Source: Echinarachnius parma (taxonomy: Eukaryota; Echinodermata; Echinoidea; Clypeasteroida; Echinarachniidae). From it: a stretch of 64,000 bases of DNA. The notes under the pieces were generated by a model. It saw nothing but the letters and a program-made list of their open reading frames with translations, had not been told where the DNA came from and did no database searches. The DNA lies in NCBI GenBank assembly GCA_037951105.1, contig JBAMJV010009368.1, positions 1-64,000 on the forward strand, given 5' to 3'. Both the position numbers and the translations under genes were made by a program. Positions 16,755 to 56,806 of this stretch are shown one piece after another; position 1 is the stretch's first letter; the number at the start of each line of letters is the position of its first letter.

Positions 16755-19700
16755 ATGAATTCAACGGAGGAGATACCCCACAACTTGTGGCCACTCTATG
16801 TGAATGCTACGATGTCTGTCATCGCATTCATTGTCACGGTTACGATGATCCCGCGATTCCACGATCTCTTCATTTCTGCTGGGATGTTTGGGAAGGACAT
16901 GAGCAAACGAGTACCCAAGGGAGGGCAGCCTCTGAAAGTGTAAGTAAACAGCATTCTCTTTGAAGACGTGCCCACGACTTGGCATTCATGACTAAAAGGA
17001 ACCGATGCGCTATACAAATTGCATAGAGCATGGGTTATTTTAGTCATGCATACCGGACTGAGTCTTGGGCACGTCTTCGAAGAGAATGCCAAGTAAACCT
17101 CAACATTTCAATAATTTGTGTGGTATTTAATTTTTGTTTTGTTGGCCCTGGTGTTGTTTCACAAAAATTCTAAGTTCTTTTCTATCACCCCCCTGAACAA
17201 AAAATTGTTTGCCCCTTTAATAGTAGACAGTAAGGCTTCTGGGTCTCACATTTAACTGAACCATTCAAACCAGAAGATGTAAACTTATGTCAATGTAGCC
17301 CTGAGGGTCTAGGTGTGATACCAGGAGCTATGTATTTGATCATCATGTTTCTCTTCATATCTTGGCCTATCTGGAAGATGTGAATAACTTAGAAAATGTA
17401 TTGTATTGTGCACAATTTAAAACACATCTAAATGTAATATTGAGATTTTCCATTCTTCTTATCCTTTGCTTATTTTTCTCCTCTTCTTTCTTTCTTCTTC
17501 CTTTGCTGACTTTGATTCTTCTGTCTTCTCTCCTTGCTCTGTTTTCTTCTCTTATATATATTATATTGTCTCTTTTCTTAATTTCTTTCATTGAATCATT
17601 CCTGAGCAAAAGAAAGAATAAACTAATTAATTATTTTATTTCAATGTAGCCCTGAGGGTCTAGGTGTGATCTCGGGAGCCATATATCTGATCGTCATGTT
17701 CCTGTTCATACCGGTGCCGTTCTGGATGGTTTGGAAGCCAGACAGCAGAGATGACTTCCCACATGATGAGGTACAAATTTAAAATGTCTAGATGGTTACA
17801 TTTCAGTGGAACCTCGTTATAAATGAAGACCTCTGATATAACAAAACCCTCTAATAAAAGTTAATTTTCATGGTCCCAAGGACCCTGTTATAAAAAGGTT
17901 CCACTAACTATAGATGTTAGTCAACTGGTGTGGACATTTAACTCTGGGAGATTTCAAAATCTGAGGAAACAATAATGTTCCTGACATATTTGTTCCTTCA
18001 ATTTCAACATCTGTAATAATGATTTAGTCTAGATACAAAGGTACAAATCATAAACCTTTTTAGTCTCTGAGCTTCTTTAGAAATTGTGGATTTATGCACT
18101 GTTTTTTAAATTTTTCATATTACTCCTTTTTTCTCTTTCATTAACAGATTCTTCCGCATTGTCCCTGAACTTTTGTGAAATATGAATTGTTCTGTTTGTT
18201 TTATTGTTATTCTTTTTACAAGTGTGTAGAGTATATCACCACCGCCTTGCTATCCATCTGTTGTATGATCTTCTTTGGATATGCTGATGGTGTTTCTGGC
18301 CCAAAACCACTAAATATGCACCATTAGTGAAAAAGTGTGTCTCCAGTGATCCTGGTCTTCTAGAGAAGAGATTTAACTTTACACCAGTTAAATTGTACTT
18401 TTACTTGATAGTGAGGGTCCTTCTCGTAAAAGTAACCATAAATTCAAAGTGATTGAAAGTAAAATAAACAATTGACAGAGGATAGAATATGGCCGAGGTA
18501 TCAAAAACCCCATGTCCCCAAGACAAAATCGTTCAGTTTTTCCAGGTTTGTAAAAAAATAAGAGTACACAGGAGCAAATTAAGTGCAGTTTTACGACAGC
18601 AGCACAGTGTTCTATGAAACATAATACAAAATGTTATGATCCCACTTTATTTAAAATGTTGATGGCCATTGGAAATGTGTCGCCAAATCTAGTGAAACCT
18701 ACGTTACCATTATCTTACTAAATAAAGGGATATGCTTAGATGCTCACATCTGTACAGTTATCTTATTTTTCTAATGATGAGAACATGGCATACAAGTAAA
18801 AACATATTTAAAAGTCAAGATACAAAAGAAATGTGACTGGGAATATAAGAAAGAGACGGGATAAAATAGTAGATTTAAGAGGTGTAACATACGTTACCAC
18901 GAATTTTAAATATAGGTAACCACTATGATGTAAATTACTCTACTGGAGTTCAGGCCAATGAAGTAGATTGATATCACACAAAAAATGAAAATTAAGTTCA
19001 ACTAAATGTTGCTTAATCAACCAAGTGATGTAACATACGTTACCAGGTGATGTAACATACGTTACCAGGTGTAAAAAAATGTGTGTGGGATATACTTAAT
19101 AACTATCTAAATTGATAGCAAACTGGTTAACGCCATCTACATGTGGTTAAGGGTGAGCTTAGCAATCATTTTCAAGGCCAAAATTGTATTCAAACAACAC
19201 TAAATGTAACATACGTGACCAATTTGAAACATACGTTACGGCCAAATTACATATCTTTGGAAATCGTTAACGGACACCTGACTAGATGAATGTTCACAAA
19301 ATATGTTTTAGTGGTTTTATTAACACTTCATTGTTTTTTTTTTCATGGTTGTAACATTCAGTTAACAACTTTGAAACTAACTATCTAACATGTGAAATGT
19401 TGATGGTAACGTATGTTACACCTTTTTATCAAAATGAAGCACACATTTCTTGCACAGTAACATTACGTGCTCATTTTCTCGGAGTATATACTACCAAGTA
19501 TGCACTTTAGATTGGCATTAAAATCAAACGTTTAGCAAGAACTTTATTTTTGACATTTTCTGACTTTTCAGTTGTACATAATTAGTGGTTTTGAGCGTTC
19601 TAAGCATTTTTATAATTGTGCCCTTTTTATCGCTATAATTCTAGATCTGAGTGTTGCCTCAGAACTTCATTACTTCATGTTATTATTTGTTTTATTATTC

Positions 19701-56300: not shown

Positions 56301-56806
56301 TATTATCATCAATTCTTAATGATTACCTTCTTGCTACATCCGCCAAGAAACAGCTCCAGACTGATGATCTCTTGTAGAACGTTGAAATAATTCCTTCGTG
56401 GACACATGTAGTTCAGCAGGCCAAAGATCAGCGCTATGTGGTTGGACACCTTCCTCCCCTCCCTTACATTTATTCTCTTCTTCCTCTCCTTCCCCATGGC
56501 TCCCGCGAGAACCGCATACAACAGAGGACAGCGCTCCTCGGCTTGGCGCTCGGCAGCCTCCCAGCTGAACGTCCTTGCCGAATCAAACTTCTTCGTCTTG
56601 CTCTTCCACATTGACGGTTTTTTTCTGTCCGCCAAGTGCTTCAGCTCTGTCACCATGTCTTTGATGACAAACTGCTGCGCTACTCTGCGGGCCTTTATCC
56701 GGTATTTGTACAGGCGCTTCAAGAATGGCTCGTATCTGTAGTCGTATAAGTATTTGAGGAAATGATCGTCGAAGAGCTCATCATTGGTCATCCCAGCATG
56801 CCATTT
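44314..56806 (-). CDS. DUF6589-like protein with internal PHD finger (5' end missing)
   Basis: Minus-strand exons, in order: 56806-56327, 55359-55146, 53079-52933, 51317-51077, 47593-47461, 46838-46578, 45489-44314; all GT-AG with compatible phases, 883 codons. The first exon opens in phase 0 at an acceptor, so a start exon lies upstream and was not found. The order of landmarks (RCPLLYAVLAGAM, LQEIISLELFLGGCSKKV, then RLEGLYLPPQEW, NDTGTLSNIRDW, QWNRTVNVSGEAGGNVPLD and VIPGRSHEGFPKF) is that of the large DUF6589-type families of corals and other invertebrates, by my recollection. A C4HC3 PHD finger (YCIC...CDNGSC...WFHLSC...WFCSSEC, about residues 608-659) interrupts that domain. PHD fingers read histone tails; the DUF6589 function is unknown. 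A PQEQPREIPQEQPQEE stretch and a Lys/Glu-rich segment are likely disordered. Several exons have echoes. Confidence 0.85.
45590..46497 (-). pseudogene. Three echoes of the exon at 46578-46838
   Basis: Downstream of the intact exon its 3' half and donor recur: 46376-46497 (open; ILGCKPAISIKKARGTGEGK, then YDWLEGLYLPLQERQKHG, donor GTTTG), 46143-46290 (stop in place of W) and about 45590-45715 (no clear donor). Divergence rises with distance, so the farthest is probably the oldest. The intact exon encodes ILGCKPALIKRVREAQKARE and RLEGLYLPPQEWQKHGAYIQ. Confidence 0.9.
45830..46020. repeat. Low-complexity insert between exon echoes
   Basis: A C run and an A run near 45840-45858 start a stretch with 'gggcgaatgagggcgaattc'; part of the duplicated intron, no gene. 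Confidence 0.4.
47160..47455. repeat. Degenerate (GAAT)n array
   Basis: Tetranucleotide array with variants GAAC and AAAT, partly in blocks with 'cgaccaaatgaatg' and 'tttacatttgg'. It ends directly at the donor side of the exon 47593-47461. Confidence 0.9.
47660..47701 (-). pseudogene. Echo of the exon at 47461-47593 (5' part)
   Basis: It keeps the 'ctttttgcag' acceptor and the first 42 bp, encoding SEYVAMVKRILVK, with one synonymous difference, then runs into 'ctctgtacatt'. It is 108 bp upstream of the intact exon in gene orientation. Confidence 0.9.
47993..48041. repeat. Perfect 49-bp palindrome (23-bp arms, TTA spacer)
   Basis: The arms 'tttacgattgatcgtacg' + 'atcga' are exact inverted repeats. 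Around it 'gtaacataaa' and 'tacgatcaat' words recur to about 48110, as in a short foldback element. It would extrude as a cruciform or fold as an RNA hairpin. Confidence 0.95.
48110..48855. repeat. Tandem 'gacctttgacctcatgaccc' repeat family
   Basis: About five units of roughly 110-130 bp, each with 'gacctttgacctcatgac', 'accaagtttggtgagaa' and 'cggttcttgaga', ending in 'gacggacggac' and 'gcctccggctacttcg'. This arrangement is common in marine invertebrate genomes. A related pattern is at 63535-63860. Confidence 0.85.
48992..49571. mobile_element. TTAA-flanked MITE, GGGGAATTCC ends
   Basis: 'ttaaaggggaattcc' / 'ggaataccccttta' ends, 580 bp, no long frame. A TTAA target is used by piggyBac- and Kolobok-type elements. 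Confidence 0.8.
49950..50335. mobile_element. TTAA MITE, AGGGACTTAGTAAC ends
   Basis: Ends 'ttaaagggacttagtaac' / 'gttattagatccctttaa'. A closely similar copy is at 63078-63473 and an older one at 38011-38362. Its right TTAA is shared with the next element at 50332. Confidence 0.85.
50332..50725. mobile_element. Second copy of the 9291 TTAA MITE (right end lost)
   Basis: It starts 'ttaaaggggaccaccc' and follows 9728-9291 in reverse, with 'gtgatatcaaataggtaccc' and 'catatttttgtgaacttgtt' in common; the distal end has decayed. Confidence 0.75.
51525..52004. mobile_element. hAT-like CAGAGCTGCCAA element, composite
   Basis: Ends 'cagagctgccaa' / 'ttggcagctctg', with an internal end-like copy at 51709 ('aagctgccaacctatagag'), so two related elements or an internal duplication. 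Same terminal family as 42495. Confidence 0.6.
52216..52895. mobile_element. hAT-like element, ACTTGCCAAC ends
   Basis: Flanked by exact GTTTACAT (52208-52215 and 52896-52903). Ends 'acttgccaac' / 'gttggcaagtctgg'. It contains, from about 52365, a member of the 'gtgaaacagttacacgacgg' family also seen at 42585 and 58873. Confidence 0.75.
53151..53520. repeat. Minisatellite of about 22 bp, 'caacagtcctttctaggact'
   Basis: About 14 units with point variants; some units are paired with the inverted word 'cctagaaag'. Fragments recur at 53750-53830. The flanks 'gtcaaccta/gtttgaaacgtcg' (53115 and 53646) are themselves duplicated. Confidence 0.9.
53939..54139. mobile_element. CAGTCACACCGCCAAAC MITE
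   Basis: Inverted ends 'cagtcacaccgccaaac' / 'gtttggcggtgtgactg', 201 bp. A second member lacking its right end lies at 55594-55750. Confidence 0.85.
54680..54778. repeat. (GACG)n/(GACA)n array
   Basis: Near-perfect tetranucleotide array, first GACG then GACA, in the intron of the minus-strand gene. 54150-54680 has no other recognised feature. Confidence 0.97.
54796..55110. mobile_element. Complete member of the 'acttgccc' family
   Basis: Ends 'caagcctctacactaac' / 'gctagtgtcgagccctg' are inverted with mismatches; the interior repeats 'acttgcccg' and 'gggcaagt'. Its right end lies 35 bp from the donor of exon 55359-55146. Confidence 0.65.
55594..55750. mobile_element. Partial CAGTCACACCGCC MITE
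   Basis: It matches 53939-54139 in its left and middle part ('gtgctagcggt', 'tgtcggtctcttttg') but ends after 'gtgactgctaacc'. Confidence 0.75.

Follow-up and report, generated by a model that had tools for sequence, protein, structure and literature searches.

Partial exon copies as probable remnants of short tandem duplications in an echinoderm genome

In amphioxus, minisatellite-like tandem duplications that run over intron–exon boundaries leave partial exon copies known as mirages, which two reports describe gene by gene for globin, Adh3, troponin C and PGBD5; they involve both 5′ and 3′ exon ends, often keep the AG or GT, have units of 150–160 bp (in one globin gene), 157, 60, 108 or 10–72 bp, occur in haplotypes with six and three copies, and were proposed as a route to intron gain in amphioxus (PMC3087553, PMC3902484). 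In Drosophila, new introns have been linked to tandem duplication of coding sequence (PMC2891723). Here we describe similar partial exon copies (hereafter, echoes) around exons of a DPAGT1 gene and a DUF6589-like gene in a stretch of 64,000 nucleotides from the echinoid Echinarachnius parma (hereafter, the window; contig C9352, JBAMJV010009368.1, of a 1.2-Gb assembly of 14,790 contigs), and around exons of other genes elsewhere in the assembly. We suggest that the echoes are very probably remnants of head-to-tail tandem duplications, mostly of 120–240 bp, that arise at many places in and outside exons, form arrays that gain and lose units, and leave partial copies that decay approximately neutrally.

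As in amphioxus, the duplications include an exon–intron boundary, acceptor-side and donor-side duplications both occur (at 15 and 8, respectively, of the 53 exon cores surveyed below), and copy number varies between haplotypes, although two echoes on contigs C8375 and C6105 and one in HSP60 are shared. Whereas the amphioxus cases come from a cephalochordate, ours come from an echinoderm, outside the described range; they turned up in exons that had not been selected for them, alongside duplications outside exons, and their size preference was measured. In amphioxus, reverse-transcription PCR showed normal splicing. The Drosophila cases share with ours a tandem duplication that places splice sites beside an exon, but our copies remain intronic as far as can be read from the genome (PMC2891723). 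The kind of copy is already known from amphioxus; its occurrence in this phylum, its density and its size preference are new. Among the papers listed in literature searches, which left most subscription journals outside their coverage, none was noticed that reports such copies from an echinoderm or a size preference. The mitochondrial COX1 frame (a single match, on a contig of 19,741 bp) fits the echinoderm code (AAA = Asn at RMNNMSFW, ATA = Ile, AGA = Ser), ND4L lies between COX1 and COX2, and ND1 and ND2 lie on the COX1 strand, a gene order that we take to be of the echinoderm, sea-urchin or sea-cucumber type.

Echoes around window exons

The DPAGT1 gene was reconstructed as nine exons with canonical splice sites throughout and an open frame of 418 amino acids; a solved DPAGT1 chain matches the reconstructed protein (E 1.8e-158), and a genome search gave 16 matches, every one on the window's contig, with no haplotig of the window itself among them. 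Each exon was compared with its flanks up to 1.3 kb, and copies scoring above all 100 shuffles were kept. In DPAGT1 and the DUF6589-like gene together, 21 rows of partial exon copies passed (two rows being weak). Those of DPAGT1 comprise one upstream of exon 2, five downstream of exon 3, two upstream of exon 4, three upstream of exon 6, two upstream of exon 8 and two fragments upstream of exon 9, to which a wider look added an echo upstream of exon 3 (67/84 positions identical, 0/500 shuffles as high). In the DUF6589-like gene, one row lies upstream of exon 47593, three lie downstream of exon 46838 (one weak, 73% over 56 bp) and two downstream of the terminal exon 45489 (one weak, 76%, score 49). 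The positions in the window are as follows.

16755..27837, + strand: DPAGT1 gene, nine exons
16755-16939, 17650-17770, 19723-19936, 21979-22125, 22858-22942, + strand: DPAGT1 exons 1–5
24237-24425, 25148-25218, 26549-26721, 27766-27837, + strand: DPAGT1 exons 6–9
17299..17375, + strand: echo holding the acceptor and 5′ part of exon 2, 81% identity
18208..18294, + strand: echo holding the acceptor and 5′ part of exon 3, the one found in the wider look
20020..20808, + strand: five-echo array, each echo holding the 3′ part and donor of exon 3, 89–92% identity (units 20020-20125, 20217-20305, 20410-20434, 20551-20616, 20724-20808)
21234..21638, + strand: two echoes holding the acceptor and 5′ part of exon 4 (21234-21314, 84%; 21561-21638, 91%)
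23523..24344, + strand: tandem array of units of ~230 bp, with three echoes of the exon 6 5′ part (23548-23658, AG lost; 23775-23881; 24005-24112) and the real start of exon 6
25838-25943 and 26110-26215, + strand: two echoes holding the acceptor and 5′ part of exon 8, 97% identity
26853..26882, + strand: 30-bp piece of exon 9, 93% identity
27449..27558, + strand: terminal exon 9 copied almost in full, including acceptor AG and stop, internal gap
47660..47701, − strand: echo holding the acceptor and 5′ part of DUF6589-like exon 47593, 98% identity, spacing 108 bp
46142..46460, − strand: two echoes holding the 3′ part and donor of exon 46838 (46365-46460, 92%; 46142-46287, 82%)
45621-45676, − strand: weaker third piece of exon 46838
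43903..44204, − strand: two copies of the 3′ end of terminal exon 45489, no donor (44058-44204, 85%; 43903-44022, weak)

As the first-pass annotation of the window had described, upstream copies generally consist of the acceptor and the 5′ part of the exon, and downstream copies of the 3′ part and the donor. The acceptor AG is retained in 8 of the 9 window upstream copies that extend to the exon start, and the donor GT in 5/5 downstream copies of DPAGT1 exon 3 and, as read directly from the sequence, in the two nearer copies of exon 46838. The rule fails at exon 45489, the copies of which hold the coding end and untranslated region with no donor because this exon is terminal. When DPAGT1 is taken together with the CCT/HSP60 exon cores surveyed below, 26/31 upstream alignments extend to the exon start and 1/31 to the exon end, and 11/14 downstream alignments extend to the exon end and 0/14 to the start (alignments inside one array are not independent in these counts). 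A head-to-tail duplication crossing one boundary leaves one full exon and therefore an acceptor-side part upstream or a donor-side part downstream of it. The order of copies is automatic from this geometry, and selection on the gene, which the annotation had held responsible for the order, is not needed; it only settles which copy can decay. The proposal that each duplication broke once within the exon and once within the intron finds support in the tandem geometry and the chaperonin survey, and the reading of the window copies as tandem duplications that span exon–intron boundaries, matching the amphioxus mirages, is supported.

Neighbours of DPAGT1 are a C2H2 protein gene and an exon in which a PHD finger is accompanied by a DUF6589 match; the latter scores 26.3 bits, slightly below the curated cut-off of 27 bits. 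Echoes had been claimed for all three genes, which stands for DPAGT1 and the DUF6589-like gene and not for the upstream copy of the C2H2 start exon, as 42/500 shuffles score equally high. The downstream copy of that exon is doubtful as a genuine echo: 0/500 shuffles score as high, but only 129/173 positions are identical, with 40 gaps. The C2H2 start exon also contains its own 75-bp repeat. In DPAGT1 intron 7 (window 25260-26496), there are long tetranucleotide arrays that were duplicated along with the start of exon 8.

Duplications in other genes and their preferred size

For a wider survey we used the chaperonin family CCT/HSP60, which was picked blind to echoes. A genome search gave 63 matches, 62 of which were entered (C6892:558-797 was left out); 53 of these fall in the 16 regions, out of 20, that were surveyed (144,414 bp; the haplotig repeats L017, L026, L028 and L029 were left out). 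Exon cores were defined as profile matches at E <= 1e-3, which miss short exons (one exon missed in this way was seen with an echo) and may themselves be echoes, and the non-exon part of the same regions served as background. These regions contain 129 direct and 35 inverted local pairs, and chance was rejected as their source, given that one Markov control yielded no direct pair. A local direct duplicate overlaps 22/53 exon cores, compared with 11.6 ± 2.6 when the positions are shifted (0/1000 shifts as high); in a stricter count, 21/53 cores carry an echo. Upstream echoes accompany 15 cores and downstream echoes 8, which is not a significant difference (p 0.21). Duplicates cover 21.2% of exon sequence and 11.0% elsewhere. 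The first-pass annotation had guessed at a wider duplication process from the density of copies in the window; the survey finds such copies elsewhere, so that the density is not peculiar to the window, and the excess of partial exon copies that a survey was expected to reveal is present, in a small sample of 53 exon cores.

A single dispersed repeat family behind all units was considered and rejected, as only a handful of the 60 clusters resemble units at other loci; these few belong to dispersed families. Among profile tables of other genes, which reveal only long, little-decayed echoes and were left out of the counts, that of myosin has one echo-like row among 82 (C1237:166421-166549), and no echo-like row was noticed among the 43 of adaptin.

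The duplications have a preferred size. After clustering, 51/71 in the chaperonin set are spaced 120–240 bp, with 8 below 120 bp, 3 at 240–480 bp and 9 above, and 10/14 in four regions of class I synthetase genes (PF00133) are spaced 120–240 bp. Simulated two-copy duplications with 5–20% divergence were detected in 95–100% of cases for units of 80–800 bp, so the fall-off on either side is no detection effect in that range. Stretches often of ~180 bp are duplicated in situ, inside and outside exons, and partial exon copies of this kind were encountered in the majority of the genes examined.

Haplotypes, decay and competing explanations

Copy number differs between haplotigs. In a chaperonin gene, a 98-bp unit consisting of the polypyrimidine tract, the acceptor and the first exon bases is present three times on C4646 and once on its haplotig C10697, with TGG common at the junction (that is, 3 bp of microhomology in a young event). 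The synthetase cases, picked after the search table had suggested differences, are not a random sample: two echoes on C4637 compared with one on C172, and a 190-bp unit on C6484, its donor GT lost, that is absent from C11573. Loss in C11573 is the likelier direction for this unit because the two C6484 copies diverge more than the haplotigs do in the exon. At another synthetase exon, C11573 has one upstream and one downstream echo and C6484 has neither; we considered whether the two C11573 echoes were fused to give the C6484 exon, and site patterns fail to separate gain from loss. The haplotig pair C2977/C3355 (L034/L035) has arrays on both sides. The MAFFT indel list is unreliable where region ends differ, and only rechecked insertions were used. 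Other echoes are shared: the two common to C8375 and C6105 are 252/254 and 176/177 identical between haplotigs, flanks included, and 112/134 and 53/57 identical to the exon copy, and one HSP60-exon echo is common to three contigs. The HSP60 locus occurs on three contigs (L027, L028 and L029, that is, C3032, C9177 and C906), one above the two-haplotype expectation, and the third may reflect either three alleles or a recent duplicate.

The copies decay. In a sample of 29 echoes (one per exon and side, 27 exons), echo–exon mismatch at codon positions 1, 2 and 3 is 11.0, 6.2 and 21.5%, and 15.2% in the non-exon parts; in the 12 echoes with at least 20 non-exon columns, the values are 8.3, 3.7, 19.2 and 15.5%. 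Position 2 is thus at or somewhat under half the non-exon value, roughly fitting drift in the echo alone. The exon part has a gap or a stop in 12/29 echoes, and the codon changes in the echoes comprise 125 synonymous, 128 nonsynonymous and 4 nonsense.

Several observations weigh against our reading of the echoes as decaying remnants of tandem duplications. The ratio of third- to second-position mismatch is 3.45 (bootstrap 2.6–4.9), compared with ~1.7 anticipated for a freely drifting echo; contributions to this excess could come from exchange with divergent haplotypes, from rapid change at third positions or from a degree of constraint on the echoes. Breakpoints are clean in one event only, and several high-identity pairs are shorter than their spacing. 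In the window, only 13/35 duplications are spaced 120–240 bp and 13 fall below 120 bp, short spacings for which minisatellites probably account. Exonic and non-exonic spacings overlap, with a small difference (median 184.5 for 20 exonic and 155.5 for 40 non-exonic spacings; Kolmogorov–Smirnov p 0.04, on lists transcribed by hand). The exon excess, when counted by bases, falls inside the shift range (mean 13.1%, standard deviation 3.3, maximum 30.1%), and the survey is confined to two gene families, without random contigs.

Assembly errors, in which two haplotype versions of a short stretch are joined end to end, would be favoured by a genome that is highly heterozygous with separate haplotigs, and the bias of echo–exon differences to third positions resembles that of coding differences between haplotypes. 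Nonetheless, this source is extremely improbable, given that neither the window nor the 37 loci contain an N, that many copies are only 73–85% identical, stand in arrays of at least three, or have lost splice sites or acquired stops, and that such errors would not predict a preferred spacing. For the shared echoes it is already refuted, as those of C8375 recur on C6105 in nearly identical form and are far less similar to the exon; the artefact against which the first-pass annotation had cautioned is accordingly rejected for echoes that recur in independent haplotigs. Maintenance by selection, with echoes serving as alternative exons or decoy splice sites, could likewise draw on the third-position excess, on the splice dinucleotides retained in the scorable window copies (8/9 and 5/5) and on the near-complete copy of DPAGT1 exon 9. 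We consider it quite improbable, however, because synonymous and nonsynonymous changes are about as numerous, nonsense changes, gaps and stops occur as given above, some copies on one haplotig are missing from the other, and most carry just one of the two splice sites.

A reading that we regard as unlikely is that break repair copied nearby DNA into short spaced duplications rather than head to tail, like the vertebrate 'doublets' reportedly described by Thomas et al. in 2004. Several of our pairs with ~90% identity or more have a length under half their spacing, and the duplications known in vertebrates are, in one study, likewise short, local and direct, with microhomology at some junctions (PMC2671141). 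That study describes a copy inserted at a distance, however, and treats copies at most 50 bp apart as tandem, excluding them, whereas the young cases here lie head to tail, mostly at a spacing of 120–240 bp (PMC2671141). As to whether unrelated sequence separates donor and copy, our pairs are mixed, but the clearest young cases are contiguous across the entire unit (98, 155 and 149 bp), in one gapped case the echo is interrupted, which accounts for the missing part, and another retains an intron part that can still be aligned weakly. A process aimed at exons or splice junctions is suggested by exon cores being struck about twice as often as shifted positions (22 compared with 11.6). We hold such targeting to be very improbable: non-exon sequence is also covered, at 11%, with similar spacing, and an approximately twofold excess would be expected if a constrained member slows the decay of a pair, so that targeting is not required.

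Under the tandem-duplication reading that we prefer, a head-to-tail duplication crossing an exon boundary would yield the intact exon and a truncated copy. Its birth may involve microhomology-mediated template switching or end joining at the scale of a nucleosome or an Okazaki fragment, the arrays would then gain and lose units, probably through unequal exchange or deletion between copies, and the partial copies would decay roughly neutrally. Tolerance of the copies might come from exon definition, under which a pair of splice sites within range exists at the intact exon alone.

Wider meaning and other features of the window

It is possible, and we propose it tentatively, that a distinct mutational process operates in some invertebrate deuterostomes (this echinoderm and amphioxus), duplicating stretches of ~180 bp, on a nucleosome or Okazaki scale, head to tail and genome-wide, and leaving a haplotype-polymorphic partial copy beside about two-fifths of conserved exons. 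If so, it would continually supply material for splice sites to shift, for introns to be gained and for exons to be rebuilt by recombination among copies. If the sampled density holds genome-wide, this animal would provide many natural examples, from young to old, of duplicated splice sites that compete and decay, and intron gain by tandem duplication could be tested in it directly. The size preference offers a handle on the mutational mechanism. For annotation there is a warning: splice-site-bearing copies adjoin about two-fifths (21/53) of the conserved exons examined.

The remaining features of the window are mostly repeats. An open frame of 1615 residues (3400-8247, + strand), Lys-rich with Cys clusters near its end, contains tandem repeats of 162 bp (3622-4232) and 36 bp (5171-5394) and has no Pfam match at 0.001; an Rfam search of the window found nothing. 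A degenerate tandem repeat of ~139 bp, rich in AGGTCAAAGGTCA, occupies 48121-48766. A few CCT loci have mutually similar units of 123–151 bp, possibly dispersed families of such a kind. A minisatellite at 53174-53513 has a 22-bp unit, TACCAACAGTCCTTTCTAGGAC, plus variants. A dispersed repeat is found at 49950-50335 and 63078-63473 (91% identical), with a further relative at 38011-38376. Short stretches of 1-1222 recur at 57151-57455 in both orientations and may belong to one mobile element, and similar palindromic stretches at 53931-54145 and 55586-55750, with direct and inverted matches, possibly represent a small inverted-repeat element.

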